Source of the DNA: Thalassobius sp. I31.1
Lineage (GTDB): Bacteria > Pseudomonadota > Alphaproteobacteria > Rhodobacterales > Rhodobacteraceae
Length of the DNA stretch: 64,000 bases
Reading direction: 5' to 3'
Assembly (NCBI RefSeq): GCF_003031585.1
Contig: NZ_PWAA01000005.1
Coordinates: 28,987 to 92,986 of the forward strand
Shown: positions 7,520-44,990 of the stretch, one piece after another
Layout: each line of letters starts with the position of its first letter
How positions within the stretch are numbered: position 1 is the stretch's first letter
Notes under the pieces: model-generated
Seen by the model: the letters and a program-made list of their open reading frames with translations, nothing else
The model's database searches: none
Told to the model about the DNA's origin: nothing
Program-made: the position numbers and the translations under genes

Positions 7520-10480
7520 TTATCCTTTGATCGTCAGCGCATCATCAACGAGTGCGGCTTGTTCTGCTTTGTGTTTTGAAGCGAGGCCTGTTGCCGGAGA
7601 GGCAGAGGCCGCGCGGCCAGCGTATGTGGCGCGGGCGGATGTGTGATCTTTGATGCGGGACAGCACCCATTCGATGTTTGGTTCCATAAAGGACCAACCA
7701 CCCTGGTTTTTCGGTTCTTCCTGACACCAGACCATTTCCGCGTTTTTAAAGCGGGACAGTTCCTGGACCATGGATTGCGCCGGGAACGGATAGAACTGTT
7801 CCACACGCATCAGGTAGACGTCATCGATGCCACGGTTGTCGCGTTCTTCCAGTAGGTCAAAGTAGACCTTACCGGAACACATGACCACGCGTTTGATCTT
7901 GTCATCCGCCTTCAGTTTCGTGTCGGAATTGCCTTTTTGCGCGTCATCCCACAGCACCCGGTGGAAGGAACTGTCGCCTGTGAAATCCTCAATCTCAGAC
8001 ACGGCCAGTTTATGGCGCAGCAGGGATTTTGGTGTCATCAGGATCAGCGGCTTGCGGTAATCGCGGTGCATCTGACGGCGCAGAATGTGGAAATAGTTCG
8101 CAGGCGTGGTACAGTTGGCAACGATCCAGTTGTCGCCACCACACATCTGCAGGAAACGTTCCAGACGCGCTGAGGAATGTTCCGGGCCCTGGCCTTCAAA
8201 ACCATGCGGCAGAAGAACAACCAAACCAGACATACGCAGCCATTTGCTTTCACCGGAACTGATGAACTGGTCGAACATGATCTGCGCGCCGTTGGCGAAA
8301 TCGCCGAACTGGGCTTCCCACATCACCAGCGCATTTGGTTCTGCAAGGGAATAGCCATATTCAAAGCCCAAGACCGCATATTCAGACAGCATAGAGTCGA
8401 TGACTTCATACTGTGCCTGACCTTCGCGGATGTTGTTCAGCGGATAGTAGCGTTCTTCCGTGTCCTGGTTCACGATGCCGGAATGACGGTGCGAGAATGT
8501 CCCGCGTGTCGCATCCTGGCCTGCCAGACGCACAGGGTAACCTTCGGTCAGAAGGGACCCAAACGCCAAGGCTTCGCCGGTGGCCCAGTCAATGCCTTTG
8601 CCAGCCTCAAGCGCTTTGCCTTTGGTTTCCAGCATCCGCGTGACGGTTTTATGGGTTGGGTAGCCTTCAGGCACGGTGGACAGGGCGCCGCCGACTTCCT
8701 TAAAGGTTTCGTCCTTAATCGCCGTTGTGCCACGCTGGTAGTTGTCATCTTTGGTATCAAGATGGGACCAGCGGCCATCCAGCCAGTCGGCTTTGTTTGG
8801 CTTGTAGACTTTACCGGCTTCGAATTCTTCATTCAGATGCGCCTGGAAAGAGGCTTTCATATCCTCGATCTCGCCCTCAGGGATCAGGCCGTCTTTGACC
8901 AGACGTTCTGTGTACAGCTGAAGCGTGGTCTTATGGCCTTTGATGTTTTTATACATCAGAGGGTTGGTGAACATCGGTTCATCGCCCTCATTGTGGCCAA
9001 AGCGACGGTAGCAGAAGATATCCAGCACAACGTCTTTGTGGAACTTCTGACGGAATTCTGTTGCAACGCGGGCTGCGTGTACCACCGCTTCCGGGTCATC
9101 GCCGTTGACGTGGAAGATCGGGGCCTCAACCATCATCGCGATGTCGGTTGGATAGGGGCTGGATCGGCTGAAATGCGGCGCTGTGGTGAAACCGATTTGG
9201 TTGTTCACAACGATATGCATGGTGCCGCCGGTTTTATGACCGACAAGGCCGGACAGACCGAAACATTCCGCAATCACACCCTGGCCAGCAAAGGCCGCAT
9301 CACCATGCAGAAGGATCGGCATGACTTTGGTGCGATCAGTGTCGTTCAGCTGGTCTTGTTTCGCGCGGACTTTGCCGATGACAACCGGGTTCACCGCCTC
9401 AAGATGGGACGGGTTCGCTGTCAGGGACAGGTGCACGGAATTGCCGTTGAAATCACGGTCAGATGACGCGCCAAGGTGATATTTCACATCGCCAGAACCA
9501 TCGACATCCTCGGGCTTAAAGCTGCCGCCCTGGAATTCGTTAAAGATCGCTTTATACGGCTTTTGCATGACGTTCGCGAGAACGGACAGACGGCCCCGGT
9601 GCGGCATACCAATGATGATATCCTGCACGCCCAACGCGCCACCGCGTTTGATGATCTGTTCCATCGCCGGGATCAGGCTTTCGCCGCCATCCAGACCAAA
9701 ACGTTTGGTGCCCATGTATTTCACATGCAGGAATTTTTCAAAACCCTCGGCCTCAACCATCTTGTTCAGGATCGCCTTGCGGCCTTCCTTGGTGAACTGG
9801 ATCTCTTTGCCGTAGCCTTCAATGCGTTCTTTCAGCCAGGAGGCCTCTTCCGGGTTGGAAATATGCATGTATTGCAGTGCAAATGTGCCGCAATAGGTGC
9901 GTTTTACGATGTTCACGATCTGACGCATGGAGGCGATTTGCAGGCCCAGCACGTTATCAAGGAAAATCGGGCGGTCCATATCCTGGGCGGTGAAGCCATA
10001 GGTCGCCGGATCAAGTTCCGGGCGGATGGTTTCGTCGCGCATTTTCAGGGGATCAAGGTTCGCCGCCAGATGGCCCCGGATCCGGTAAGCGCGGATCAGC
10101 ATCAGGGCGCGGATTGAATCCAGAACCGCACGTTTGATGGCCTCGTCAGACACCTCAACGCCTTTTTCCTGCGCCTTGGCTTTGATCTTGTCACCCGCGC
10201 CTTTGGCTTCGGGTTCTGCGGGCCATTCACCCGTCAGGGCTGCGGTGACATCGTCCGCTGGCACCGGCGGCCAGTCCATGCGGCCCCAGGACGGGCCTGC
10301 TGCCTCTTGCGTGACTTCATGTGCACCATCACCAAGCGACTGGAAAAATTCAGCCCAGGACGCATCAACGGCCGATGGGTCGTTGGCGTAGCGGGCATAC
10401 ATTTGCTCCAGGTACTCGGCATTATGCCCCTGCATAAAGCTGGTGGCATGAAACTGGTCATTGGGGGACTGGTCGTTCAT
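7520..10480 (-). CDS. odhA: 2-oxoglutarate dehydrogenase E1 component
   Basis: Thiamine-diphosphate enzyme that decarboxylates 2-oxoglutarate and succinylates the lipoyl group of E2. The 986-residue length fits E1o. Visible landmarks are the N-terminal peripheral helix ([18 protein letters not shown]), [27 protein letters not shown], the cofactor-site [13 protein letters not shown] and [11 protein letters not shown]. The start ATG overlaps the stop of a DUF805 gene as ATGA, so the E1 gene is translationally coupled to it, which is unexpected for a housekeeping enzyme. odhB follows five bases later. Also called sucA. Confidence 0.97.
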
Positions 10481-11052
10481 TGGATGACCTCACTGGGGTT
10501 GGGACCGTATTTGTTTGTTTTGGATTCGGATGGCGTAGCAAGCCAATGGATGTTCAAAATGAGAACGATGATAAAAGCCACTAACATTGCCCCGGCAAGA
10601 TAACCGGAAACCGGTACCTGTACGTGACTCTGTTGGGCATACTCAGAGAAGAAACCTGATACGCCGGTATGGGCGAGCAGGATCAGAAACATGATGAGCC
10701 ACCAGCCAAGAAACGGCAGATAAGGCAGATACCCGGGTTTGCCCATATCGTGCATTCTGCGCCAGCCGGCGGTGATCCAGGGCAGGGCACAGATCAAAAG
10801 GAAGGTAGTGCCAAAGATGCCGCCAGAGTATTGCTTTCTGATGGCGATAGGGTCGCCAATTGGATTGCCAAGGCTGTCGACATTGTAGGAGACAGTGATC
10901 GTCGGACCGAAAATGGCTGAGTTCACGATGATCAGTGCGATGCTAACCAGAAGAATAAACAGGATGAACTTCCAGAACTCACTGCGGGTAGCGCGACCCG
11001 AAAACGTGAATCCTTTGCGGAAACAGATTTTTGCTGCCTCAAGCATAGTCAT
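10477..11052 (-). CDS. DUF805 membrane protein 1
   Basis: 191-residue DUF805 protein. It has the family opening (FSGRATRSEFWKFILF), four hydrophobic segments and the loop WRRMHDMGKPGYLPYLPF with the conserved R-R-x-H-D. The start at 11052 is favoured because it overlaps the stop of the second DUF805 gene as ATGA; its own stop overlaps the odhA start in the same way. DUF805 proteins have no settled function. The position between sucD and odhA in an otherwise metabolic series is the main clue. Confidence 0.88.
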   Translation of the reverse strand: MTMLEAAKICFRKGFTFSGRATRSEFWKFILFILLVSIALIIVNSAIFGPTITVSYNVDSLGNPIGDPIAIRKQYSGGIFGTTFLLICALPWITAGWRRMHDMGKPGYLPYLPFLGWWLIMFLILLAHTGVSGFFSEYAQQSHVQVPVSGYLAGAMLVAFIIVLILNIHWLATPSESKTNKYGPNPSEVIQ

Positions 11053-11654
11053 AGGATCTCTCCCCGTGGATGCGCGCCCCATTGGTTTTCATCGGGGTCT
11101 GATCTGCGTAGCAGGGTGGGGGTGATCAGGGCAAATGACAAGCCCGCGATCATAACGAGCGGCAGGATCGCCACATAGAAAATCAGCGCGCCCAGGATGT
11201 TATGGGCGGCAGTGCCCAGGGCGACACCCGGGCTGAGATAGGCGTAAAGCGCGTTTTCGCGGGGGCCAGCCCCATCCATAGCCATATCAGCGTGGACAGC
11301 GGCCAGATGGGCATCAACACGCAGAGAAGGCAGGGACAGCCAGGCGGCAAGACTCAGGCAGAGGAAACAGAGCAGAAACAGCGCCGCGCCGGTTTTTGCG
11401 AATTGTCCCGCATCATGGAAACGGCGAATTGCGGCGGTGAATGTCAGGGGCAGGGTGATCAGGGAAAGGATCAATCCAAAGGTAAAGGCCCGCAGGCCCG
11501 TCAGCGGGCTTTCTGCGAGGGCCAGCATCCCTAAGCCAAAAGCAGGCGCCCCCATATGCACAGCCCATAAAGACCAGAACTCCCCCCGTGTGGCACGGGA
11601 AGAGAGTGACAGGCCATTGGTCAGGCGACGTGATATGGAAGCAATGATGCTCAT
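11049..11654 (-). CDS. DUF805 membrane protein 2
   Basis: 201-residue paralogue of the following gene: NGLSLSSRATRGEFWSLW, four membrane segments and the AIRRFHDAGQ loop match DUF805. The ATG at 11654 has a good GGAGG eight bases upstream; the long N-terminal extension in the same frame is Pro/Gly/Arg-rich and reads through a structured intergenic element, so it is rejected. Compared with its partner it has a longer loop before the last helix. It is the first of two DUF805 genes translated into odhA. Confidence 0.86.
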   Translation of the reverse strand: MSIIASISRRLTNGLSLSSRATRGEFWSLWAVHMGAPAFGLGMLALAESPLTGLRAFTFGLILSLITLPLTFTAAIRRFHDAGQFAKTGAALFLLCFLCLSLAAWLSLPSLRVDAHLAAVHADMAMDGAGPRENALYAYLSPGVALGTAAHNILGALIFYVAILPLVMIAGLSFALITPTLLRRSDPDENQWGAHPRGEIL

Positions 11655-11664
11655 GGCAGAACCT

Positions 11665-11745
11665 CCGCCCGGCGGTGAGGCCGGGCAGCGCCCGACCCTC
11701 CCCACGGGAGGGCGCTTACGCACCCGCCCTGGGCCGGGCGCTGGA
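11665..11745. repeat. GC-rich structured intergenic element between sucD and the DUF805 pair
   Basis: Contains nested inverted repeats: CCCTCCC/GGGAGGG with a three-base loop inside a wider CGCCCGG/CCGGGCG pairing. It resembles dispersed hairpin elements of this order more than an intrinsic terminator, since no T run follows. It may lower read-through from sucCD into the odh genes or stabilise the processed ends. Confidence 0.45.
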
Positions 11746-11788
11746 GATAATCCAGCCTTGACCATATGTGGAGAGAGGCCGTCATTTT

Positions 11789-12670
11789 TTAGCCGATCGC
11801 TTTCAGCACTGCTTCGCCAAGGGTGGCGGGGCTGTCTGCAACAACGATACCAGCGGATTTCATTGCTTCGATCTTGTCTTCGGCACCACCTTTACCACCA
11901 GCAACAATCGCGCCCGCGTGGCCCATACGACGGCCGGGAGGGGCTGTGCGGCCTGCGATGAAGCCAGCGGTTGGTTTCCAACGGCCTTTTTTCTTCTGCT
12001 CGGCGAGGAATTCAGCGGCTTCTTCTTCTGCGGAGCCACCGATTTCACCGATCATGATGATGGATTGGGTTTCATCATCATCCAGGAACATATCAAGCAC
12101 GTCGATGTGTTCTGTGCCTTTGATTGGGTCGCCGCCGATGCCAACAGCTGTGGATTGGCCAAGGCCGATGTCAGATGTTTGCTTAACTGCTTCGTAGGTC
12201 AGTGTGCCGGAACGGGACACAACACCAACGGAACCACGCTTGTGGATGTGGCCTGGCATAATGCCGATTTTACAGGCGTCAGGGGTGATCACGCCCGGGC
12301 AGTTTGGCCCGATCAGGCGGGAGGCAGAGCCTTCCAGCGCGCGCTGTACACGCATCATGTCAAGCACAGGAATGCCCTCAGTAATGCAAACGATCAGTTC
12401 CATCTGCGCGTCAATCGCTTCCAGGATGGAATCAGCTGCGAAGGGGGGAGGCACGTAGATCACGGAAGCGTTGGCTTCGGTCGCGTGTTTCGCTTCGTGG
12501 ACAGAGTCGAAAACCGGCAGGCCAAGGTGGGACATGCCGCCTTTGCCCGGGGTCACGCCGCCGACCATTTTGGTGCCATACGCGATGGCCTGTTCAGAGT
12601 GGAATGTGCCCTGAGAGCCGGTAAGGCCCTGACAGATCACTTTGGTGTTTTCGTCGATGAGGACTGCCAT
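11789..12670 (-). CDS. sucD: Succinyl-CoA ligase (ADP/GDP-forming) alpha subunit
   Basis: Alpha subunit that carries the phosphohistidine intermediate and binds CoA. The 293-residue product opens with [18 protein letters not shown] and has the CoA-binding Rossmann region ([10 protein letters not shown]), [15 protein letters not shown] and the phosphorylated His251 in [13 protein letters not shown]. The start at 12670 has a clear AAGGAG upstream; the longer frame is excluded. It follows sucC with one small membrane-protein gene in between and works as a heterodimer with SucC in the cytosol. Confidence 0.97.
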
Positions 12671-12681
12671 TTGGAGTCTCC

Positions 12682-12918
12682 TTAGTTGTGTCTCTGTTTC
12701 CAGAAAAACAAAGAATATTGGATTGTTAGAAGCGTTGCCGTGAAGCCCAGCCCGATACACCCGAAGCCAGTCAACATTGCTTCGGTAATTCCAGCACCTG
12801 GGCCACTACATGTTTCATAGCTGCTTTCTGGGCCGGTAATGACGGTTCGGCAAAGTGTCATCAACCAAAGACCGACAAGCGCCGGAATACAAAAGATGAC
12901 AGACACGATGAGCTTCAT
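12682..12918 (-). CDS. Small membrane protein between sucC and sucD
   Basis: 78 residues with two hydrophobic stretches (about 3-22 and 46-68) and a polar, Cys-containing loop between them, ending in a basic tail (FWKQRHN). It fits precisely in the gap between sucC (7 bases) and sucD (11 bases), which supports a real gene even though no strong Shine-Dalgarno is visible. Topology suggests a two-pass inner-membrane protein. Function unknown. Confidence 0.62.
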
Positions 12919-12925
12919 TGGCGGC

Positions 12926-14119
12926 TTACCCTTTAACCGCTTTCACGATTTTCTCGGCACCGTCGGAGAGGTCGTCAGCTGCGATCACATCAACGTCGGA
13001 GTTGTTGATGATGTCTTTGCCGGCTTCCACATTGGTGCCTTCAAGGCGCACAACGAGCGGAACCTGCAGGCCAACTTCTTTCACCGCGGCAACAACGCCC
13101 TCAGCGATCACGTCACAGCGCATGATGCCGCCGAAGATGTTCACAAGGATGCCTTTGACGTTCGGATCAGAGGTGATGATTTTGAACGCTTCGGTCACTT
13201 TCTCTTTGGTGGCGCCGCCGCCAACGTCAAGGAAGTTCGCAGGTTCCGCACCATACAGTTTGATGATGTCCATGGTCGCCATGGCCAGACCCGCGCCGTT
13301 CACCATACAACCGATTTCACCGTCAAGGGTGATGTAGTTCAGGTCGTATTTAGAAGCCTCGAGTTCCTTCGGGTCTTCTTCGGTCATGTCGCGCAGTTCA
13401 GCCACGTCAGGGTGACGATAGATGGCGTTGCCGTCGAAGCTGACTTTCGCATCAAGCACTTTCAGATCACCGGAATCGGACACGATCAGCGGGTTGATTT
13501 CCAGCATTTCCATGTCTTTTTCGATAAATGCTGTGTACAATTGACCCATCAGTTTCACGCATTGTTTGACCTGCGCGCCCTTAAGGCCCAGAGAAAACGC
13601 GATGCGACGACCGTGGAACGCCTGATAACCCGTTGCCGGATCAACAGAGAAGGACAGGATCTTTTCAGGTGTTGCTTCTGCAACTTCTTCGATGTCCATA
13701 CCGCCTTCGGTGGAACACACGAAAGACACGCGAGATGTCTGACGATCAACCAGCAGGGCCAGATACAGTTCGGTTTCAATGCCAGAACCTGCTTCGATAT
13801 AGATGCGGTTCACTTGCTTGCCAGCCGGGCCGGTCTGGTGGGTGACCAGGGTGCGGCCCAGCATTTTCTTAGCTTCTTCAGCGGCTTCTTCAACGGATTT
13901 GCAAAGACGTACGCCGCCTTTTTCGCCTGCGTCAGCTTCTTTGAATGTGCCTTTGCCGCGACCACCAGCGTGGATCTGCGCCTTAACAACCCAAAGCGGG
14001 CCATCAAGTTCGCCAGCGGCGTTTTTTGCGTCTTCAGCTTTGGTGACCGGGCGGCCCTCAGAAACGGGTGCGCCGTAAGAACGCAAAAGCGCCTTGGCCT
14101 GGTATTCATGAATGTTCAT
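12926..14119 (-). CDS. sucC: Succinyl-CoA ligase beta subunit
   Basis: ATP-grasp subunit that binds nucleotide and succinate and works with SucD. The 397-residue product begins [19 protein letters not shown], with [14 protein letters not shown] in the ATP-grasp fold and [16 protein letters not shown] near the C-terminus. The start at 14119 is the family start; the long upstream extension is Arg/Ser-rich and crosses an intergenic operator region. It is the first gene of the minus-strand series that probably runs to lpdA. Two TGTGATCAC palindromes lie 109-139 bases upstream. Confidence 0.97.
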
Positions 14120-14227
14120 GTCATCTTCCGGTTTGTTGCTGCGGTTTCTGGCAGTCAATACGACCTGATCCTGTAAATAAATCGTTTTTATTCCACAAAT
14201 GCGTGATCGGCGGATATTTGTTGCATT

Positions 14228-14258
14228 TGTGATCACGGATTTTGCGGCTGTGATCACA
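14228..14258. promoter_or_regulatory. Paired TGTGATCAC palindromes upstream of sucC
   Basis: TGTGATCACG (14228-14237) and TGTGATCACA (14249-14258) are exactly 21 bp apart, two helical turns. The same pair with the same spacing and same end bases occurs at 22795-22825 upstream of sdhC. A shared transcription factor for both TCA operons is the simplest reading. I do not recognise the regulator. Confidence 0.65.
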
Positions 14259-14381: not shown

Positions 14382-15749
14382 TCAGTTCAGCATAAAGACG
14401 AACAGCCCGCTTTGTCGTTGTACCATGCGTTCAAAGCGGGTCCAGTTGTCGCCGGTCATGACCTCGCCCTGGCGGGCGTAAGGCAGTGTGGCCGTGCCCT
14501 GGGCCCAGCCGATCACATTCAGAGGGGCGGGGTTTTGAACCCAGGCGTTAATATCAATGCCGTGGCCAGGGGCGTAGCGCCAGAAGGGGATCAGAAGTTC
14601 GCCCTTCAGCATTTTTTCCATATCCGTCAGGACGGCCAGCCAGGCTTCATCAATATTCTGGGGCATCTCAACCCCAAGGGCGGCCTGCTGCGATCCATTG
14701 GGGATCCATTCGCGATCATTGTCGGTTTCCGCATTCACCAGACGCCAGAAATTACGGTTGTGATCGACCATATCCAACAGATGTTGCTGTGCTTTTGCAA
14801 CCCGGGCCTGATCCGGCTGGTGGCGCAGAGTTTCGATAATGACAGCTGCCATGTCGACGAAGTGGGCGCTTTCGGACATCCAGTTTCTCTCGCCTGCAAG
14901 AAGTGCGCCAAGCGCGTATTTGTCGTCGTCGCTGAGCTGCTCGTACAGCTTCTGATATTCTATGAGTTGCGCCTCTGTCGGGTTCTCCACCGACAGGCTA
15001 AATTCGACAATTTTCTGCAAGCCAGGGAACTCTGCCGCCATGGCAAGGCGCTGATCGTAAATTGCCCGGCGCAGGTCCAGCGCCTTCTGAATTTCAGGTT
15101 GTGGGTCAAAAGCCAGGATCAACTCGCTGACGCCGGAAATCACATTGCTATAGGCGCGCAGCCAGTGCGCGTCGGCTTCGTCAAAACGAATGGTGGCCTG
15201 AAGAGGATTGGGCAGGTCCGGGTTGTCTTCAAACTGGCTTTCAAATTCCTGGATCTGCCAGCGGGACAGAACGTTCTGAAGGGCGATTTTGCCGAAGTCC
15301 TCTTCAGCGTCCCGCGTGCCGTTCATATTGATGTCAAACCAGATGTCCGGCAGCGACAGTTCAAACGCGGCGTCTGATCCTTCCGGAATTTGTGCCAGCA
15401 GTGCATCGGTTTTCGCCATATCCGCAAGGAAGGTCTCAAACAGGTTGTTCAGCGTGTCGCCTTCAATCATCTCGGGTGCAGGATTTATCGGCAGTTCATT
15501 GGAAAATAACGGCAGGGGCAGATCATTGGTCACATAGCCCACCCGCCAGCGGGTCTGATAGGCTTTCTCAATCGCCCGTAAAAAGGTGATGCCACTGAGG
15601 GCCAGACGATCACTGTCAGTCAGACTATCCTGATTTTCCAGATTTTCGATCGCCCCGGCAAGGCCTTGCTCGCGGATCAGATCAGTTGGTGCGGCCTGCG
15701 CAGTCAAAGCAAAACAGCAGGCAGCGGCGGACATAAGAAGGGTTCGCAT
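14382..15749 (-). CDS. Secreted protein of unknown function
   Basis: 455 residues with a clean signal peptide ([20 protein letters not shown]). The mature part is acidic and largely helical, with a segment resembling a calcium-binding loop ([14 protein letters not shown] near 150) of EF-hand type, and a Trp-rich C-terminus. I do not recognise the family. It ends about 130 bases before the sucC operator pair, and is preceded by the terminator of the glycosyltransferase gene, so it seems to be a separate unit in the TCA block. Confidence 0.8.
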
Positions 15750-15771
15750 GGAACATCCCCATCATAAATTA

Positions 15772-15801
15772 AAAGCGCGCCACAAAAATGTAGCGCGCTT
15801 T
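15772..15801 (-). terminator. Intrinsic terminator after the mdh-glycosyltransferase pair
   Basis: A 9-bp perfect stem (AAAGCGCGC with GCGCGCTTT) and a 12-base loop, followed on the minus strand by TTTTAATTT. It lies 70 bases after the glycosyltransferase stop codon. Confidence 0.8.
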
Positions 15802-15870
15802 CATGATTTTACGAGGGCAGGAATTCCTGACCTTGAACAGAGTAGAGCATTTGCAAGGGCGAGCCGCCTG

Positions 15871-16617
15871 TTAGCCAAACAGGCGGAAAAGCAGAAAGCG
15901 GATGCGGGCAGATGCGGACTGCAGCAGGTAGGATCGTGATTTCTTTCGCGCGATCTCGTCTTTCTTAACGGTGGCTGTGTCGTCGCCAATGTGAAGCACA
16001 TCACCGTCTTTCAGGTGGGCAAGGCGAAAGCCGGACAGCTTGTGTTTCAGGCAGATTTCCCGTTCCGGACCCATATTAGAGAACGGGGCGCAGGCCAGAT
16101 AGTCGCTGGTCCGACGCAGGCCCGGATTGAACGAGAAGCTGCCGTAACGTCGATGGTGCTTTGGGTCGAATTCCCAGTATTCGACGCCGTTTTCGACACG
16201 ATCCCACAGTTTGTAGGCTGACAGCGGTGTCTCTTCTGGTGCGCGGACCATAACAGCATGAATGTTTGCAAACTGATCCAGGATCACACGGGATTGTGGT
16301 ATGAACAGGCCGGTTGGAAAGACCCAATCGTCTTCGCAGTGATAGATATAGTCGGTATCGACTTCAGCATAGGCACGATCAACAGAATGGATCTGACCCA
16401 TGTTTTGTTCATTCTGTATAAACAGATGGGGAATATCCCGAAGGCATCGCGAAACGATGCCTCCGATCTCATGGTTTGTCGAATCCTCGATCACGATTAT
16501 GCGTTTGACACTTTCAAGATCGCAGGATGCAATTGAGGTCAGCGTTTTCTCCAGATCATCTGGTCGATTACAACTGGTCAGGACCAATGTGACATCTTTT
16601 ACTTGATTTTCCAGCAC
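15871..16617 (-). CDS. Family 2 (GT-A) glycosyltransferase
   Basis: 248 residues with the GT-A opening VTLVLTSCNRPDDLEKTLTSI, the IIVIEDSTN strand and the acidic metal-binding motif YHCEDDW near residue 95. No membrane segment is evident, so it is probably cytosolic and acts on a soluble or membrane-edge acceptor. The gene starts 21 bases after the mdh stop on the same strand, suggesting co-transcription, though there is no metabolic link to malate dehydrogenase. Donor and acceptor cannot be predicted. Confidence 0.85.
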   Translation of the reverse strand: MLENQVKDVTLVLTSCNRPDDLEKTLTSIASCDLESVKRIIVIEDSTNHEIGGIVSRCLRDIPHLFIQNEQNMGQIHSVDRAYAEVDTDYIYHCEDDWVFPTGLFIPQSRVILDQFANIHAVMVRAPEETPLSAYKLWDRVENGVEYWEFDPKHHRRYGSFSFNPGLRRTSDYLACAPFSNMGPEREICLKHKLSGFRLAHLKDGDVLHIGDDTATVKKDEIARKKSRSYLLQSASARIRFLLFRLFG

Positions 16618-22743: not shown

Positions 22744-22794
22744 GAAAGGGCTTTTTGCCTGAAGTGTGCGTTAGCGATAGCAATCGACATTTTT

Positions 22795-22825
22795 TGTGAT
22801 CACGAAAAATAATCATGTGATCACA
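22795..22825. promoter_or_regulatory. Paired TGTGATCAC palindromes upstream of sdhC
   Basis: TGTGATCACG (22795-22804) and TGTGATCACA (22816-22825), 21 bp apart, identical in design to the pair upstream of sucC. They lie about 200 bases before the sdhC start, leaving a long leader that contains a CCTGCCGGCAGG palindrome at 22971-22982. Confidence 0.65.
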
Positions 22826-23028
22826 AAATGGTAAAAATATCGCGATCAGAGGCAATACCGCTGCGAAAGTTGCAAAAAACAACATCGAAAGGTGTGACAT
22901 TCGGGAAATATTCAGTATTGATGGGTGAAATCCGGCGCAGGCGGCATTTTCCCGTCTGATTCCGACATGTCCTGCCGGCAGGCCAGCAGGGCCAACATAA
23001 GGCAGACCAACCGCAAGGGGGCACCCAC

Positions 23029-23412
23029 ATGGCTGACGTAAACCGGGGTAACCGGCCGCTATCGCCGCATCTGACGATTTACCGTCCACAGTTCACTTCT
23101 GTGACTTCTATTTTAACCCGTATCACTGGCAATGCTCTGATCGTTGGCACGCTGCTGACCGTCTGGTGGCTGATTGCCCTGGCATCTGGTCCGGAATACT
23201 TTGAATGCGCGAATGCGGTCATGACCTCCTGGTTTGGCAAGCTTGTGATGCTGGGGTCCCTCTGGGCGCTTTCCTATCACTATATGGCGGGTCTGCGTCA
23301 CCTCTGGTGGGATTCAGGTCGCGGGTTTGAGCTGGACAAAGCCAGGACCCTGGCCATCGTTGTTGTCGCAGGGTCGTTCGTTCTGACGATCCTTGCCCTG
23401 CTGATTATATAA
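23029..23412 (+). CDS. sdhC: Succinate dehydrogenase cytochrome b556 subunit
   Basis: 127-residue membrane anchor of complex II that carries part of the heme b and quinone site. RPLSPHLTIYRPQ, SILTRITG and the heme-ligand helix SYHYMAGLRHLWWD are standard SdhC marks, with three transmembrane helices. AAGGGGG lies seven bases before the ATG. First gene of sdhC-sdhD-sdhA-lipoprotein-sdhB. Confidence 0.96.
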   Translation: MADVNRGNRPLSPHLTIYRPQFTSVTSILTRITGNALIVGTLLTVWWLIALASGPEYFECANAVMTSWFGKLVMLGSLWALSYHYMAGLRHLWWDSGRGFELDKARTLAIVVVAGSFVLTILALLII

Positions 23413-23425
23413 GGGAGCGCAAAAC

Positions 23426-23797
23426 ATGTCTTTTCTGACTGACCGTAAACGCGCCAACGGCCTTGGGTCTTCCAAATCCGGCACCGCACACCACTGGCAG
23501 ATGATGATTGGATCCACCGCGCTGATCCTGCTGGTACCGCTGTTTGTCTATGTCTTCGGGTCTGCCATCGGGCTGGCCTATGACGATGCGATTGCGCATT
23601 TCGCCAAACCGTTCAACGCCATCATCACCGGCCTGACCATCACCGTTGCCATGATCCACTTTCGCCACGGTGTTCAGATCATGCTGGAAGATTATGTGCA
23701 TGGTCACACCCGGACCTATCTGATCGCGGGCGCCGCCTGCCTGAGCTATGGCCTCATTGCCGTTGCTCTTTTCGCTCTCGCACGTATCGCCCTCTGA
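23426..23797 (+). CDS. sdhD: Succinate dehydrogenase membrane anchor subunit
   Basis: 123-residue second anchor subunit with three hydrophobic helices. The helix IHFRHGVQIMLEDYVHG contains the histidine and Asp-Tyr of the heme/quinone region. It starts 13 bases after sdhC with AGGGAG upstream and is followed by sdhA after 25 bases. Confidence 0.95.
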   Translation: MSFLTDRKRANGLGSSKSGTAHHWQMMIGSTALILLVPLFVYVFGSAIGLAYDDAIAHFAKPFNAIITGLTITVAMIHFRHGVQIMLEDYVHGHTRTYLIAGAACLSYGLIAVALFALARIAL

Positions 23798-23822
23798 TTG
23801 ATGGCTGTAAGGAATTAGAACA

Positions 23823-25628
23823 ATGGCAGCATATGAATATGAAACCCACGAATTTGACGTCGTGGTTGTCGGTGCCGGTGGCGCAGGTCTGCGCGCAACC
23901 CTTGGCATGGCAGAACAAGGGCTGAAGACCGCCTGTATTTCCAAAGTATTCCCAACCCGTTCCCACACGGTTGCGGCGCAGGGCGGTATTGCCGCGTCTT
24001 TGTCCAACATGGGGCCGGACCACTGGCAGTGGCACATGTTTGACACTGTAAAAGGGTCTGACTGGCTGGGTGACACGGATGCGATGGAATATCTCGCCCG
24101 TGAAGCCCCCAAAGCCGTGTATGAACTGGAACATTACGGTGTGCCGTTCTCACGTACCGAAGAAGGCAAAATTTATCAGCGTCCGTTTGGTGGTCACACC
24201 ACTGAATTCGGTGATGGCCCACCCGTACAGCGGACATGTGCTGCGGCGGACCGGACCGGTCACGCGATCCTGCACACGCTGTATGGTCAGTCCCTGAAGC
24301 ATAACGCAGAATTCTACATCGAATATTTCGCCATTGATCTGATCATGTCGGAAGACGGTCAGTGTCAGGGTGTTGTCTGCTGGAAACTCGATGACGGCAC
24401 GATCCACGTCTTTAACGCCAAGATGGTTGTTCTGGCGACCGGTGGTTATGGCCGTGCTTACTTCTCTGCGACCTCTGCCCACACCTGTACGGGTGACGGT
24501 GGCGGTATGGTGGCCCGTGCGGGTCTGCCTTTGCAGGACATGGAGTTTGTGCAGTTCCACCCGACCGGCATCTATGGGTCTGGCTGTCTGATCACAGAAG
24601 GTGCGCGCGGCGAAGGCGGCTATCTGACCAACTCGGAGGGTGAACGTTTCATGGAACGTTACGCCCCCCAGTATAAAGACCTGGCCCCACGCGATTATGT
24701 GTCCCGCTGTATGACCATGGAAATCCGCGAAGGTCGTGGTGTTGGTAAAGAAGGCGATCACATCCACCTGCACCTGAACCACCTGCCACCGGAGACCCTG
24801 GCCGAACGCCTGCCGGGTATTTCTGAAAGCGCACGGATCTTTGCCGGTGTTGATCTGACCAAAGAGCCGATCCCGGTTCTGCCGACAGTGCACTACAACA
24901 TGGGCGGTATTCCGACCAACTATTATGGCGAAGCCCTGAACCCGACTGCAGAAGATCCAAACGCTGTTGTGCCTGGCCTGATGGCCGTGGGCGAAGCGGG
25001 TTGTGCCTCTGTGCATGGTGCGAACCGTCTTGGCTCCAACTCGCTGATTGACCTTGTGGTCTTTGGGCGTGCGGCTGCGATCCGCGCGGGTAAAGTTGTG
25101 GATGCAGATGCACCAAACCCGGTTCTGAACCAGGCGTCTGTCGACAAGGCGCTGGATCGTTTCGACGGTCTGCGTCACGCCAAAGGTGGCACCCCAACTG
25201 CGGAACTGCGTCTTGAGATGCAGAAAACCATGCAGGCGGATGCGGCTGTCTTCCGCGAAGCCAGCACCCTGTCTGAAGGTGTTGAGAAGATGACCGGCGT
25301 TGCAGCTAAGCTGGACGATCTGGCCGTGTCTGACCGCACCATGATCTGGAACACAGATCTGATGGAAACGCTGGAACTGACCAACCTGATGCCAAATGCT
25401 CTGGCGACGATTGTTGGCGCTGAGGCCCGTAAAGAAAGCCGTGGCGCACACGCCCATGAAGATCACCCGACACGGGATGACGAAAACTGGCGCGTGCACA
25501 CTATCAGCCGTGTGGAAGGCAACAAAGTTGAACTGTCCCACCGTCCGGTTGTGACAGATCCGCTGACCACAGAAGCAGAAGGCGGCATCGAGCTGAAGAA
25601 AATCGCACCAAAGGCGCGGACTTTCTGA
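23823..25628 (+). CDS. sdhA: Succinate dehydrogenase flavoprotein subunit
   Basis: Catalytic flavoprotein of complex II, oxidising succinate to fumarate. The 601-residue chain has the FAD fold [17 protein letters not shown], the covalently flavinylated His48 in [12 protein letters not shown], the capping-domain GQMEF-type segment [11 protein letters not shown] and the catalytic Arg region around [19 protein letters not shown]. The last base of its stop codon is the first base of the lipoprotein ATG (TGATG). Confidence 0.98.
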
Positions 25629-25957
25629 TGCGCCGTATGGCTTCATATATTGCACTGGCTGCGGTGGCATTTGCCGCTGCGGGTTGTACGTTGCAGGAAC
25701 AGGTCGACAACACCACACGCGCAGCAGCCCTGCGCACCGTGGTGTCCGTGTCCGAGGATAAATTCCCCGGCGTGAACGTCGAACCTGTTGCCGCCTGCAT
25801 CATCAACCAGGCCAGCAGCAATGAAATATTCACACTTGCCGGTGCAGCTGTCACGGGCATTAATGATTCAACCGTTGAGACCGTGGTCAACATCGCCGCG
25901 CGCCCGGATGCTGTGAAATGCATCGCCCGGGAAAGTCTCAGCGGCATTCAGCTATAG
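25628..25957 (+). CDS. Lipoprotein encoded between sdhA and sdhB
   Basis: 109 residues: a lipoprotein signal peptide ending in the lipobox AAAGC (Cys at about residue 20), then a small, mostly helical domain with three further cysteines (CIINQ, KCIARES). The TGATG overlap with sdhA and the ten-base gap to sdhB place it firmly inside the sdh message. No family known to me. An envelope lipoprotein has no obvious place in complex II, so a role in assembly or in an unrelated envelope process is open. Confidence 0.8.
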
Positions 25958-25967
25958 GAGAAGACTG

Positions 25968-26747
25968 ATGGCAGAATTCAGACTCCCCAAGAACTCCCGC
26001 ATGGTGACAGGCAAGACCTGGCCCAAGCCGGAAGGCGCAACCAACGTCCGTAAATTCCAGATTTACCGCTGGAACGAAGAAGACGGCAAGAACCCGCAGG
26101 TCGACACCTATTTTGTGGATCTCGACACCTGTGGTCCGATGGTTTTGGATGCGCTGATCAAGATCAAAACGGATATTGACCCGACACTGGCCTTCCGCCG
26201 GTCCTGTCGTGAAGGCATCTGTGGATCCTGTGCGATGAACATCGACGGCATCAACACGCTGGCCTGTATCTATGGCATGGATGAAATCAAGGGCGACGTA
26301 AAAATCTACCCGCTGCCACACATGCCGGTGGTGCGCGACCTGATCCCGGATCTGACGCATTTCTATGCCCAGCACGCATCCATCATGCCGTGGCTGGAAA
26401 CCAAGACCAACCGCCCTGCGAAGGAATGGAAGCAGTCCATCGCCGATCGTAAAAAACTGGATGGTCTCTATGAATGCGTGATGTGTGCGTCTTGTTCCAC
26501 ATCCTGCCCAAGCTACTGGTGGAACGGTGATAAATATCTCGGTCCAGCCGCGCTGTTGCATGCGTATCGCTGGATCATTGATTCACGGGATGAAGCGACG
26601 GGTGAGCGCCTGGACGAGCTGGATGATCCGTTCAAACTGTACCGCTGCCACACCATCATGAACTGCGCCAAGACCTGCCCGAAAGGCCTGAACCCGGCCA
26701 AGGCAATCGCTGAAATCAAGCAACTGCTTGTTGAACGCGCGGCGTAA
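25968..26747 (+). CDS. sdhB: Succinate dehydrogenase iron-sulfur subunit
   Basis: 259-residue electron-transfer subunit. The three cluster motifs are present in order: [2Fe-2S] [22 protein letters not shown], cited here by its cysteines at about residues 83, 88, 91 and 103; then [12 protein letters not shown] (start of the [4Fe-4S] site) and [17 protein letters not shown] ([3Fe-4S] and closing Cys). It follows the lipoprotein gene by ten bases with AGGAG upstream and ends just before a strong terminator. Confidence 0.97.
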
Positions 26748-39304: not shown

Positions 39305-41086
39305 ATGATTTTAGCTGAAATTCTATCCCCCACGGGACAGGCCATCGTCGCACTTTGCGTCGTGGCTGCGATGTTTGTGCTGTTTCTGCGCGAAAGCTAT
39401 CCAACCGAAGTTGTGGCGATTGCCGGCGTGGCACTGATGTTGGCCACGGGCATTCTGCCTTATGAAAAGGCCCTGCCGGTGCTGGCAAACCCGGCGCCCT
39501 GGACGATTGCGGCGATGTTCATCATCATGGGGGCGCTGGTGCGCACGGGATCGCTTGACTGGTTCACGCAATTTGCCGACCGCAAGGCCAAGACCCAGCC
39601 GGTTCTTGCGGTGGCGATGTTGATGGGGTTTGTGATCCTCAGCTCTGCGATTGTGTCGAACACCCCCGTTGTTGTCGTGATGATCCCGGTGTTTGTACAA
39701 CTGGCCCGTACCCTGGATCTGCCCGCCTCCAAAATGCTGATCCCCCTGTCTTATGCGGCAATCCTTGGCGGCACGCTGACCCTGATCGGGACTTCAACCA
39801 ACCTGCTTGTCGACGGTGTTGCACGCGCAAACGGGATGGAAGCGTTTTCGATCTTTGAAGTCACGCCTCTGGGCATTATCCTTGTGATCTGGGGCATGAT
39901 TTATCTACGCTTTATCGGGCCAAAACTGCTGCCGGATCGTGGGTCTATGGCGGATATGCTGGGCAAGATTTCGAAAAAGAAATTCTTCACCGAGGCCGCG
40001 ATCCCCCCGGAAAGCAACCTGATCGGTCGTGAGGTCAAATCCGTTCAGCTGTTCAAGCGCGAAGGCGTGCGTCTGGTGGACGTGTTACGCGGCGATCAGT
40101 CCCTGCGCCGGAACCTTGATGTGGTGACATTGCAGGTCGGCGACCGGGTGGTTCTGCGGACCGAAATGACCGAACTTCTGTCCCTGCAACGGAACAAAAG
40201 CCTGAAACGTGTGGACCAGTTGTCTGCTGTGGAAACCACAACGGTTGAGGTGTTGATTTCGCCCGACACAAAGATGGTCGGTCGGTCATTAGGTTCCCTG
40301 CGTCTGCGCCGACGTTATGGTGTTTATCCACTGGCGGTGCACCGGAAGAACCAGAACATCGGGCGTCAGCTGGACGATCTGATTGTGCGGGTCGGCGATA
40401 CGCTTTTGCTGGAAGGCGCACCGGAAGATATCGCACGCCTGGCCCAGGATATGGGGCTTGTCGATGTGTCAAAACCCTCTGGCCGGGCCTACCGTCGCAG
40501 CCATGCGCCAGTGGCGATCGCTGCCCTTCTGGGGGTTGTGATCCTGGCGGCGTTTAACGTCGCGCCGATCTTCCTGCTGTCGATAATTTCTGTTGCGCTG
40601 ATCTTTATGTCGCGCTGCATTGACGCCGAAGAAGCGTTTTCCTTCATTGATGGTCGCCTGCTGGCGCTGATCTTTTCGATGCTTGCCATTGGGGCAGCGT
40701 TGGAAGCTTCTGGGGCCGTCAAACTGATCGTCGACGCCATCGCGCCGGGCCTTGGTTTGCTGCCGCCTTTCCTGATCGTCTGGGCGATATATCTGCTGAC
40801 ATCCGTGCTGACAGAACTTGTATCCAACAATGCGGTGGCGGTGGTTGTGACACCAATTGCGATTGGCCTGGCCGATGCGCTTGGCGTTGATGCCCGCCCG
40901 CTGGTCGTGGCTGTGATGGTGGCCGCAAGCGCAAGTTTTGCCACACCAATTGGGTATCAGACTAACATGCTGGTTTATGGTCCGGGTGGCTATAAATTTA
41001 CCGACTTCATGAAAATCGGGATCCCGCTGAACCTGACAATCGGTCTGTTGGCCTCTGCCCTGATCCCGGTCTTCTGGCCGTTGTGA
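39305..41086 (+). CDS. SLC13-type permease with TrkA-C domains (1)
   Basis: 593 residues: an N-terminal membrane half (LFLRESYPTEVVAIAG, SNTPVVVVMIPVF, LGGTLTLIGTSTNLLVDG), two cytosolic RCK_C/TrkA-C domains (about 210-375), and a second membrane half with LTELVSNNAVAVVVTPIA and FATPIGYQTNMLVYGPGGY. The SNT/SNN and T-P-x-G motifs are the sodium/substrate elements of the DASS/SLC13 fold. Substrates range from dicarboxylates to sulfate. A transporter of identical length lies at 43209 on the other strand, flanking the nitrile hydratase genes. Confidence 0.9.
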   Translation: MILAEILSPTGQAIVALCVVAAMFVLFLRESYPTEVVAIAGVALMLATGILPYEKALPVLANPAPWTIAAMFIIMGALVRTGSLDWFTQFADRKAKTQPVLAVAMLMGFVILSSAIVSNTPVVVVMIPVFVQLARTLDLPASKMLIPLSYAAILGGTLTLIGTSTNLLVDGVARANGMEAFSIFEVTPLGIILVIWGMIYLRFIGPKLLPDRGSMADMLGKISKKKFFTEAAIPPESNLIGREVKSVQLFKREGVRLVDVLRGDQSLRRNLDVVTLQVGDRVVLRTEMTELLSLQRNKSLKRVDQLSAVETTTVEVLISPDTKMVGRSLGSLRLRRRYGVYPLAVHRKNQNIGRQLDDLIVRVGDTLLLEGAPEDIARLAQDMGLVDVSKPSGRAYRRSHAPVAIAALLGVVILAAFNVAPIFLLSIISVALIFMSRCIDAEEAFSFIDGRLLALIFSMLAIGAALEASGAVKLIVDAIAPGLGLLPPFLIVWAIYLLTSVLTELVSNNAVAVVVTPIAIGLADALGVDARPLVVAVMVAASASFATPIGYQTNMLVYGPGGYKFTDFMKIGIPLNLTIGLLASALIPVFWPL

Positions 41087-41176
41087 TGGCGCGCAGAAGT
41101 CGCATGTATGTGTGAGCATTTGCACGGTTGACCGATCAGGCATGTCAGGGGCATCCTCTTGTCAGGAGGAACCCCA

Positions 41177-41821
41177 ATGACATCCGGCACATCATTTGAT
41201 CGCGACAAGCTTGCGAAAATTCATGACCATCTGCATTCTCACCTGCCCCCGGAACCCGCCCTTCGGGTGAAGGCGCTGGAAAGCCTGCTGGTGGAGCGCG
41301 GCCTGGTGGCGACAGAAACGCTTGATGCCTGGGTGGAAGCTTACTCAGAAGATATCGGCCCAAAGCGCGGCGCGCAGGTGGTGGCACGCGCCTGGTTGGA
41401 TGCGGATTTCAAGGCACGCCTGATGGAAGATGCTGCGCAGGCGATCACAGAATTTGGATTTGAGGGCAAAGCAACCGGTGATCTGAAAGCGGTGGAAAAC
41501 ACCGATGACCAGCACAATGTCGTCGTCTGCACCCTGTGTTCCTGTTATCCGTTTTCCCTGCTGGGCCTGTCGCCTGCCTGGTACAAAGCATCAGCCTATC
41601 GCGCGCGGGTGGTGCGCGAGCCACGTAAAGTGTTGGAAGAATTTGGTGTCTCGCTTGGCGATGACGTTGCCGTGCGCGTCTGGGACAGTACTGCGGAATT
41701 GCGTTACCTGGTGGTGCCGCAACGCCCGGCCGGGACCGAAGGCTGGAGCCAGGAACAACTCGCTGCCCTTGTGACACGCAATTCCATGATCGGCACTGAT
41801 CGCGACCTGGAGGTGAAGTGA
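41177..41821 (+). CDS. nthA: Nitrile hydratase alpha subunit, cobalt type
   Basis: Hydrates nitriles to amides. The 214-residue subunit has the metal site VCTLCSC (Cys118-Cys123); threonine after the first Cys is the mark of Co(III) enzymes, serine of Fe(III) enzymes. [13 protein letters not shown] and [14 protein letters not shown] are family features. AGGAGGA lies just before the ATG at 41177, so the six-residue longer start is rejected. The stop overlaps the beta start as TGATG. Confidence 0.95.
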
Positions 41822-42489
41822 TGGATACGATCCATGATCTGGGCGGCAAGCAGGGGTTTGGGCCGATTGATGTGAATGAACCTGAAGCCCCCTGGCACCA
41901 TGATTGGGAAGGTCGCATGTGGGCGCTGGCGCAGTCTTCACGCAACTCCACCGTGACAATCGACTGGTGGCGTCACGTGGTCGAACAACTGCCCCCGCAG
42001 GCCTATATGACCATTCCCTATTTCGAGAAATGGTGCATGACGGATCTGGCCCTGGGCGTGGATTGCGGGACCTTCACGATGGAAGAAGCCCTGAATATCG
42101 TGGGGAAGAATGCTTTGCGTGCGGATGGTGCATCCAGGGCTGAAGTTCTGAACAAGGAACAGATCCTTGAAAAGAACCGCACATCTGTCAAAACATTTGA
42201 GGAAGAGGTCGATTTCGCGCCTGCCTTCGCGGTTGGGGATCCGGTGAAAACCCTGTCCCATTCCGTCCCTACACACACCCGTCTGCCCGCCTATGCCCGT
42301 GGCCGGTCTGGCAAAATCCTTGCACAGCGCGGCGCACACCCGTTGCCGGATAAATCTGCACAGGGACAGGAGGTGCCGGAACATCTCTACACTGTGGTTT
42401 TTACCGCGCAGGAGCTTTGGGGCGCTGACGCAGATCCGCGTGATAGCGTGACCCTTGATCTCTGGGAGAACTACCTTGAGCACCTGTAA
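41821..42489 (+). CDS. nthB: Nitrile hydratase beta subunit
   Basis: 222 residues, opening [20 protein letters not shown], with WEGRMWALA, the mid-region YEK-type FEKWCMTDLAL and the C-terminal SH3-like barrel (PAYARGRSGKILAQRG, YTVVFTAQELWG, VTLDLWENYLE). The barrel holds arginines that contact the modified cysteines of alpha. Coupled to alpha by TGATG and overlapping the accessory gene by 14 bases. Confidence 0.95.
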   Translation: MDTIHDLGGKQGFGPIDVNEPEAPWHHDWEGRMWALAQSSRNSTVTIDWWRHVVEQLPPQAYMTIPYFEKWCMTDLALGVDCGTFTMEEALNIVGKNALRADGASRAEVLNKEQILEKNRTSVKTFEEEVDFAPAFAVGDPVKTLSHSVPTHTRLPAYARGRSGKILAQRGAHPLPDKSAQGQEVPEHLYTVVFTAQELWGADADPRDSVTLDLWENYLEHL

Positions 42490-42844
42490 TATCCCCCGCG
42501 AATTCGGACCTGAGGATGCCCTCGCCCCGGATGCGCCGAAATTTGGCGAGGCCTGGCATGCCCAGGTTCTGGCAATCGCTGATACGCTGGTGACATCCGG
42601 CCAGATCAGCGCCACCGCCTGGGCAGAAACGCTTGGCGCAGAACGCGACGCAGATGAAAGCGCCGGGCGGGCAGACACTGAAGAAACGTATTATGCGGCT
42701 GCTTTGCGGGCGCTTGAAAGGCTGCTTGACGGTGGTGCAATTGTTGCTTCCGGTGATCTTAAAGCCCGGCGTGACACCTGGGAACGCGCCTATCTGGCGA
42801 CGCCACATGGCGCGCCGGTGGAACTGGCCGCGGGAGAAAAATGA
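42476..42844 (+). CDS. Nitrile hydratase accessory protein (activator)
   Basis: 122-residue protein related to the beta-subunit N-terminal half and to the activators that deliver cobalt to the alpha subunit. PKFGEAWHAQVLAIADTLV, SATAWAETLGAE, the central TEETYYAAALRALERLL and KARRDTWERAYLATPHGAPVEL are diagnostic. No ATG is available; the TTG at 42476, seven bases after GGGAGAA and inside nthB, is the best start. Its stop overlaps the next gene as ATGA. Confidence 0.88.
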   Translation: MSTCNIPREFGPEDALAPDAPKFGEAWHAQVLAIADTLVTSGQISATAWAETLGAERDADESAGRADTEETYYAAALRALERLLDGGAIVASGDLKARRDTWERAYLATPHGAPVELAAGEK

Positions 42845-43155
42845 AACGTATCTTTCTGTTCCTGGCGCTGGCAGGCTGCACCATGCAGGATGCCTCGCCT
42901 GTGGTCACCCCAACAGCCGCAGTCCTGTATCGTGATACGGTCACGGTGCAGACATCTGACGGCGCGCTCTGTACTGGTCCTCGCAACAGGCCCGGCAACA
43001 CATGGTCTGGCACATTGGGCGGCTGCCCCCATGCCTGGCCCTATCAGGTGATCCGGAATACGACCCGCCCGCGACTGCCTCTGGCAGCGGGCAGTGATGG
43101 CACGTCCGGTGTAACCCTTGAGACCCCAATGGGCCCGCAAGAGTTCTCTGGCTGA
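42841..43155 (+). CDS. Small lipoprotein of the nitrile hydratase operon
   Basis: 104 residues: very short lipoprotein signal (MKRIFLFLALAGC, lipobox LAGC), then a small beta-rich domain with two cysteines (GALCTGPRN and GGCPHAWPYQV) that could form a disulfide. ATGA overlap with the accessory gene shows it is translated with the operon. Not known to be needed for nitrile hydratase; an envelope role is inferred from the lipobox only. Confidence 0.75.
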   Translation: MKRIFLFLALAGCTMQDASPVVTPTAAVLYRDTVTVQTSDGALCTGPRNRPGNTWSGTLGGCPHAWPYQVIRNTTRPRLPLAAGSDGTSGVTLETPMGPQEFSG

Positions 43156-43159
43156 TCCA

Positions 43160-43205
43160 TTCATCTTTCCGGAAATACTCCAGGGGGTGCGGGGGACTGG
43201 TCCCC
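43160..43205 (+). repeat. Rhodobacterales-type 3' intergenic element, second copy
   Basis: Directly after the lipoprotein stop, TTCATCTTTCC is followed by GAAATACTCCAGGGGG and a CGGGGGAC/GTCCCCCG hairpin. The order matches the copy read on the minus strand at 4919-4986. It separates two convergent genes and may serve as their common 3' end. Confidence 0.5.
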
Positions 43206-43208
43206 CGT

Positions 43209-44990
43209 TTACAACGGCCAGAACACGAGAATTGACGGGATAGAAACCGCCACGATCAAAATCTCAAGCGGCAGGCCCATCCGCCAGTAATCCCCAAAAC
43301 CATACCCACCAGGCCCCAGGATCAGCGTATTGTTCTTATGTCCGATTGGTGTCAGAAACGCACAGCTGGCGGCCACAGCGACGGCCATAAGGAAGGGATC
43401 AGGGTTTACGCCCATGCTTTGGGCCATCTGAATACCCACGGGGGCTGCAACAATGGTGGTGGCGGTGTTGTTCAACACATCTGACAGGGTCATGGTCACG
43501 ATCATCAGAACGGTCAGCACAGCCCAGGCAGGCAGGCCCGCGGTCAGGCCAGTCAGGCTGTTTGCGATCAGTTCCGTGCCGCCGGAGCTTTCCAGGGCCG
43601 CCCCCAGCGGGATCATCGACCCCAGCAACACCACGACAGGCCATTCAATATGGTCATAAAGTTCCTGCACTGACAGAATATTGGTCAGCACATAGGCGAC
43701 CACCACCACACCCAGGGCAACTGGCAAATAGATCAGACCAAGGCTTGCCGCAAGAACCGCGCCGCCGAAAATGCCGATCGCCATCCACGTCTTGCTGTTT
43801 TCAGTCACCTGCAATCCACGATCCGCCAGTGGCAGACAGCCCAGCCATTCCGTCACGTCAGACGCATGACCATCGGGGGTGAGCAACAGAAGAATATCGC
43901 CGGGGCGGATTTCCGTTTTGCGCAATTGATGGGTGATCTTTTTACCTTCGCGGGAGATCCCCAGAAGGACCGTGCGTTGCCGCCAGCCAAGGCCAATGGA
44001 AAGTGCGGTTTTACCGTCGATCCGGGCACCGGCGGGCACAACGACTTCTATGGTGGTCAGACCGGCCCCATCAGCGCGTAGCGCTTCTTGGCGCCTGGTT
44101 TCCGCGAAATCAAGCTTTAATGCGGCGCGAAATTCATCCAGGGCATCGGGGGCGGCTTCAAGGACCAGGGCATCGCCTGCCGTCAGTTTTGTGTTGCGCT
44201 GGGTGCCATAGCGTCGTTCGCCCTTTCGTACGAGACCCAGGATTGCGACATCGGTTTTGTCGGCTTCCGCATATAGATCAGACAAGCGTTGTCCGATCAG
44301 CTTTGAGTCTTCGGGCACGGTCAGTTCCGCAATATATTGCGCAAGACCATCCATCGGATCACCTGCAGCGCCTTTGTCTTCCCCCTGCGGGATCATCCGC
44401 CAGCCAACCAGGGTCACAAACGCCAGCCCCGCGATGGCCGCGATGCCGCCCACAGGGGCAAAATCGAACATTTTGAACGGTTCACCCAGGCTTTCACCAC
44501 GAATGGCTGCGATAATAATGTTCGGAGGCGTGCCGATCATTGTGACCATACCGCCCAGGATCGTTGCAAAGGACAGGGGCATCAGTGACAGACCCGGTCC
44601 GCGCCCGGCTTTGCGTGCGGTCTGGATATCAACGGGCATCAACAGAGCAAGGGCGGCCACATTGTTCATGAAGGCCGAGAGAACCCCACCAATGGCCCCC
44701 ATCAGCGTGATATGTGCACCAAGGCTGCGGGTGCTGTCGACAAGGGTGCGGGTGATCAGGAAGATCGCGCCAGAGCGCACAAGCCCGGCAGAAACCACCA
44801 GAACCAGGGCCACAACAATTGTTGCAGGGTGTCCGAAACCATCGAATGCGTGTTTTGTATCAACAACCCCCAGGACGACGCCGGCCATCAAGGCAGCAAA
44901 AGCCACCAGATCATAGCGGAACCGTCCCCAGAGCAGACCGGCAAAAACAAGGGCAAACAAAGCAAACAGAATAATCTGGTCAGTGGTCAT
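43209..44990 (-). CDS. SLC13-type permease with TrkA-C domains (2)
   Basis: 593 residues with the same plan as the transporter at 39305: membrane half with [14 protein letters not shown] and [16 protein letters not shown], two TrkA-C domains (about 205-375), membrane half with [18 protein letters not shown] and [19 protein letters not shown]. The helix-hairpin motifs differ (NNV/GTPPN here, SNT/GTSTN there), so the two are paralogues and not a recent duplication. Convergent with the nitrile hydratase operon. Substrate unknown. Confidence 0.9.

Follow-up and report, generated by a model that had tools for sequence, protein, structure and literature searches.

In the DNA of Thalassobius sp. I31.1 analysed here (64,000 nucleotides; the window), two short palindromes recur at a fixed distance upstream of both sucC and sdhC, which raises the question of what the paired element is and which regulator reads it. 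At sucC, TGTGATCACG starts at 14228 and TGTGATCACA at 14249, a start-to-start distance of 21 bp; at sdhC, the identical words start at 22795 and 22816, also 21 bp apart, and the two pairs (14228-14258 and 22795-22825) are 8567 bp from each other. The words, positions, and spacing are present as an earlier note on this DNA had described them.

Palindrome pairs and target operons in the window

The genes and palindromes concerned are as follows.

12926..14119, minus strand: sucC, succinyl-CoA synthetase beta subunit (Pfam ATP-grasp_2 and Ligase_CoA)
7520..12760, minus strand, downstream of sucC: sucD (frame within 11789-12760), two more open frames, and odhA (7520-10480)
14228..14237, minus strand: promoter-proximal palindrome of the sucC pair; TGTGATCACG on the plus strand reads CGTGATCACA towards sucC
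14249..14258, minus strand: promoter-distal palindrome of the sucC pair, TGTGATCACA
22795..22804, plus strand: promoter-distal palindrome of the sdhC pair, TGTGATCACG
22816..22825, plus strand: promoter-proximal palindrome of the sdhC pair, TGTGATCACA
23029..26747, plus strand: sdhC, sdhD, sdhA, and sdhB, succinate dehydrogenase, from Pfam domains (Sdh_cyt twice, FAD_binding_2 with Succ_DH_flav_C, and Fer2_3)

The names SucD and OdhA rest on gene position and on matches with the corresponding genes of relatives, and we infer that the sucC-sucD-odhA stretch on the minus strand is co-transcribed. In the window, the core of the proximal palindrome lies 109 bp from the start codon of sucC and 204 bp from that of sdhC. 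The word TGTGATCAC gave nine strand-wise matches in the window, a count in which a full 10-bp palindrome scores on both strands, with 0.78 expected and a maximum of five among 100 shuffles. The earlier note had also pointed to the same order of the two words at both places. This holds in window coordinates only and is mirrored relative to transcription, because the two genes lie on opposite strands: sucC, with its start codon at 14119, on the minus strand, and sdhC, starting at 23029, on the plus strand. The tenth base in which the palindromes differ (G or A) varied in the relatives that were read, and therefore the word order carries no meaning.

Two further arrangements were seen in the window. 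At 14382-16617, an open frame without a Pfam match and a glycosyltransferase-like gene separate sucC from mdh, and sucC and mdh are neighbours in one relative (L089). At 39305-44990, the alpha and beta genes of a nitrile hydratase lie between two CitMHS/TrkA_C transporter genes on opposite strands.

In the whole 3.73-Mb genome, the exact TGTGATCAC pair occurred at three places, and the reversed control at none. The third place, on contig C64, falls within long open frames of 498 and 431 codons, one on each strand; it was set aside and is probably incidental. Outside the window there were 72 distinct single-word sites, three of which were not in open frames of at least 130 codons. This open-frame rule over-calls coding: it even masks the site ahead of the gene for the regulator described below. 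At L036 (2717-2724), TGTGATCACA was seen shortly upstream of a long frame encoding a DUF3179 domain, with TGTGATTT 15 bp upstream of it.

Conservation, placement, and spacing of the pair

The genome scan for the spaced pair that the earlier note had called for was carried out in 149 genomes of the family, one per genus and including the genome of the window. The exact pair was found in 117 of them, with no occurrence of the reversed control in the rows of that table. Among the 32 family genomes lacking it, the 8-bp core GTGATCAC occurred twice at 21 bp in nine and twice at 20 bp in six more. A class-wide draw of 385 genomes contained the exact pair in five, namely in four of the five family members and in one of the 380 others. 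As far as can be read from sequence, the pair is a conserved promoter element.

The sole exact pair outside the family among the 380 genomes was in G295 (L219, 992-1020). It is flanked by a TonB-receptor gene and a GntR-FCD open frame, the latter opening about 8 bp past the second core and encoding a protein 28% identical to AkgR, the regulator discussed below. A distant GntR-FCD regulator may use the same paired layout in G295, a single case among 380 genomes.

The placement of the pair was followed in relatives, as the note had also proposed. Stretches were fetched from 20 relatives, a set selected for having the pair and (mostly) the regulator gene on one contig. They contained 32 pairs at 21 bp, of which 19 preceded sucC, 12 sdhC, and one odhA, so that 31 of the 32 stood before sucC or sdhC. 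In the odhA case (L098 of G136, 9754-9934) the pair is directly before odhA, and no match to sucC or sucD was found in that stretch. When loci were instead fetched by the regulator protein, the pair was present in all seven sucC upstream regions, five more being too short, and in three of four sdhC upstream regions, the fourth having one exact and one degenerate core. In the pooled loci, which needed at least 250 bp upstream and were mostly fetched because the pair was present somewhere, pairs at 20-21 bp preceded 45 of 46 sucC genes and 29 of 35 sdhC genes; no exact pair was found in the remaining six sdhC upstream regions and one sucC upstream region of this mostly pair-selected set. From the proximal core to the start codon, the pair-bearing sequences measured 96-166 bp at sucC, mostly 105-113 bp, and 107-204 bp at sdhC.

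Centre distances between cores were counted over the same 149 family genomes. A distance of 20 bp was found at 23 places, distances of 8-19 bp at 11 places, and distances of 22-51 bp at 30 places, spread over 27 genomes, or roughly one for each distance. The two cores of the element are two helical turns apart, with 21 bp as the rule and 20 bp as a minority form. Upstream of sucC in two loci (L135 and L145) there was a third exact GTGATCAC core, making three in a row at 21 bp each.

The regulator of the paired sites

AkgR of Rhodobacter sphaeroides is reported to be RSP_0981, a GntR-family protein that directly activates TCA-cycle genes (Imam, Noguera and Donohue, mBio 2015). The sites reported for this activator include the core GTGATCAC (PMC6365646, in part), and sucCD, odh, and sdh are predicted targets of RSP_0981 (PMC4344238, in part). 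Published ChIP coordinates led us to take genome G051 as R. sphaeroides: a GntR gene of G051 at 2,223,051 is within the ChIP peak at 2,222,600-2,223,600 published for RSP_0489, a GntR protein (PMC4344238, in part). On contig C4 of G051, two GntR genes at 2.740 and 2.798 Mb lie between the published landmarks RSP_0773 (2.515 Mb) and RSP_1173 (2.941 Mb), and the first of the two, which adjoins sdh, is at the expected place of RSP_0981.

The genome of the window has 15 GntR-domain matches, 14 of them over the cut-off. The gene at 3107-3754 of contig C10 was the first of the GntR genes to be tried, and it fitted; the GntR gene at C5:10000, nearer the window, was scanned for domains only. The C10 gene encodes a protein of 216 amino acids with GntR (PF00392) and FCD (PF07729) domains, both over the cut-off, and is 75% identical to the GntR gene adjoining sdh in G051. 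The nearest solved structure by sequence is McbR of E. coli (PDB 4p9f, E 2.9e-22). The genome has the core GTGATCAC at the window sites, the targets sucCD, odh, and sdh, and an orthologue of RSP_0981. The protein that reads the pairs is very likely AkgR, the GntR-FCD protein known in R. sphaeroides as RSP_0981, and the motif, regulator, and targets thus belong to a known system.

With an orthologue cut-off of E <= 1e-50, which was our own choice, the C10 orthologue was found in 133 of the 149 family genomes; the best 20 candidates at most were scored per genome, so that orthologues may have been missed. Pairs at 20-21 bp were present in 129 of the 133 genomes with the orthologue vs 3 of the 16 without it (Fisher p 7e-13, uncorrected for relatedness). 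The four genomes with an orthologue and no exact pair at this distance were G040, with one mismatch, G061, with a spacing of 22 bp, and G122 and G147, which are 76% and 73% complete, respectively. Those with the pair in which no orthologue was found among the best 20 candidates at most were G019, G096, and G114. In the class-wide draw, where the best seven candidates at most were scored per genome, matches at E <= 1e-94 were obtained in the five family genomes only, and relatives at 37-40% identity in five others. In many genomes the regulator gene is on the contig of suc and sdh, often 5-25 kb away. In the window genome, however, it is on another contig, and G055, whose genome is a single contig, has it more than 2.7 Mb away by coordinates; therefore linkage alone is insufficient to account for the association.

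The C10 gene itself carries TGTGATCACA, with the core beginning 16 bp before the start codon. An exact core preceded 21 of the 93 regulator genes examined, and 15 of these hits were at -17 to -14 relative to the aligned start codon. The R. sphaeroides orthologue had no exact site within 250 bp before the aligned start codon. These sites suggest autoregulation by AkgR in part of the family; it would not be general, because only 21 of the 93 regulator genes, and not that of R. sphaeroides, carry the site.

It is quite improbable that a GntR-FCD regulator other than AkgR reads the pairs, although related regulators appear to share the core and the 15 GntR-domain matches of the genome offer other candidates. 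A Pseudomonas GntR protein 32% identical to AkgR has been proposed to use GTGATCAC (PMC6365646, in part), the gene 28% identical to AkgR adjoins the sole pair outside the family, and three genomes have the pair with no orthologue found. However, almost all genomes with the pair also have the C10 gene, at 63-80% identity; in the window genome this gene has a site before its own start codon, and it matches RSP_0981, whose predicted targets are these same operons. Binding by a CRP/FNR-type activator is the least credible of the readings considered here. The half-site words TGTGA and TCACA do fit the CRP consensus, in which they are 6 bp apart (TGTGA-N6-TCACA), but in each conserved copy of the palindrome they abut with no spacer. 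Moreover, R. sphaeroides is not predicted to have CRP-analogous proteins, according to the partial text of PMC4344238.

Two other readings concern the way in which the sites work. Every core has GATC at its centre, and one match to a D12-class adenine methyltransferase was found in the genome (G000:C65:138672-139367). The D12 class includes Dam, and the pair might then act as a methylation-sensitive switch controlled mainly by adenine methylation. We consider this very unlikely: GATC is also just the middle of a palindrome whose conservation reaches beyond it, to the whole of GTGATCAC and to the two-turn spacing. That the sites are read independently, the spacing having no cooperative role, is somewhat less remote and still improbable. 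The single site before the regulator gene is in its favour, whereas distances other than 20-21 bp occur at about one place each over the 149 genomes and the extra sites fall in the same 21-bp phase, both of which argue against it.

Promoter geometry and a proposed mode of activation

Downstream of the pairs, the following promoter elements were predicted.

14155..14160, minus strand: predicted -10-like hexamer TATTGA of the sucC promoter, from sequence reading and position class in relatives
22894..22899, plus strand: predicted -35-like element GTGACA of the sdhC promoter
22916..22921, plus strand: predicted -10-like hexamer TATTGA of the sdhC promoter, from sequence reading and relatives

A GTGAC -35-like word was found 57-61 bp past the proximal core in 21 of 29 sdhC upstream regions (69 bp in the window), and TAT words in these regions clustered at 78-83 bp past it (15 occurrences). 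The -10 signal at sucC was weaker than the -35 signal at sdhC, with 14 of 40 sequences having it at 70-71 bp in a motif search. If the predicted promoters hold, the proximal site would be centred at about -86 for sucC and -96 for sdhC, a difference of about one helical turn, and near -107 for sdhC of the window. Start-site data for R. sphaeroides have been published (PMC7471390). In the 52 bp past the proximal core, AT content had a best period of 9.75 bp at sucC (n = 46) and 10.25 bp at sdhC (n = 29); the observed power was reached by none of 500 letter shuffles and none of 500 random rotations, a statistic that ignores relatedness.

The upstream regions were also scanned with a fuller form of the CceR site, GTTANCGNTAAC. 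With at most two mismatches to this query, 12 of 46 sucC upstream regions matched (shuffle mean 6.05, maximum 12), as did 8 of 29 sdhC upstream regions (shuffle mean 3.43, maximum 9). In the window, GTTAGCGATAGC at 22770-22781, 26 bp upstream of the distal core at sdhC, is one mismatch from the repeat in this form, and similar words were seen at the corresponding place upstream of sucC in several relatives. The position is suggestive, but neither count exceeds its shuffle maximum. Published CceR sites are GTT-N6-8-AAC inverted repeats (PMC4344238, in part).

The earlier note had proposed a dimeric regulator, which it did not name, binding two sites on one helix face and coordinating the suc/odh and sdh operons. 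A shared regulator acting on two phased sites gained support from the family conservation, the two-turn spacing, the placement before the target genes, and the co-occurrence of the GntR gene. The argument from word order fell away, and a dimer on each palindrome, with the dimers acting together, is an inference, as it was in the note. We consider it highly probable that the paired sites are binding sites of two AkgR dimers that would turn on the sucC and sdhC operons together. One dimer would be expected on each copy, because the core is a palindrome, and the two-turn spacing would place both dimers next to each other on the same face of the helix, where neighbours may bind cooperatively. The complex would then activate transcription while bound about 85-105 bp ahead of the predicted start sites, with the phased AT-rich DNA between sites and promoter possibly helping activation, and AkgR may control its own gene through the single site. 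More tentatively, and with odds that we put somewhat below even, the pair could form a helix-phased platform on which two, sometimes three, AkgR dimers lock only at two-turn spacing, the AT-rich DNA bending or holding the polymerase alpha subunit, and thereby activate both sucC and sdhC from that same upstream distance. We know of no such cooperative activation geometry for GntR-FCD regulators. In the literature searched, the primary AkgR paper excepted, none of strict two-turn pairing, family-wide conservation, triplets, or phased AT-rich DNA is described.

The window genome has in common with the AkgR system of R. sphaeroides (sources seen in part, as above) the core GTGATCAC, the targets sucCD, odh, and sdh, and an orthologous regulator gene, and differs in that this gene is off the suc/sdh contig. 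PS417_07240 of Pseudomonas simiae, a proposed regulator of deoxyribonate catabolism 32% identical to AkgR, shares the core GTGATCAC, but serves a catabolic gene cluster with one palindrome rather than a pair (PMC6365646, in part). NanR of E. coli resembles the proposed action of AkgR in being a GntR-type protein of which several dimers bind cooperatively to adjacent operator repeats; unlike AkgR, it is a repressor with three GGTATA direct repeats and another regulon (PMC8012715, in part). The double sites of the FadR/HutC type are likewise paired at a near-constant distance and taken as cooperative, but lie in divergent promoters, whereas here each pair precedes one operon in one direction (PMC4494728, in part). 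In FadR-subfamily sites, GT and AC are typically 3 nt apart, or 2 nt in some groups (PMC4494728, in part). In GTGATCAC, they are 4 nt apart, although the regulator is of the FCD type, and 4 nt is the distance of HutC-type sites (PMC4494728, in part).

For work on this family, AkgR targets can be sought as pairs at 20-21 bp rather than by a short word whose matches are mostly background, and the pair is a clean test case for whether a GntR-FCD protein activates cooperatively. Were succinyl-CoA synthetase, 2-oxoglutarate dehydrogenase, and succinate dehydrogenase controlled jointly, flux through this whole segment of the TCA cycle would be set together. If two or three AkgR dimers do lock together on the phased sites, the element would link the middle of the cycle to one signal through wiring specific to the family.
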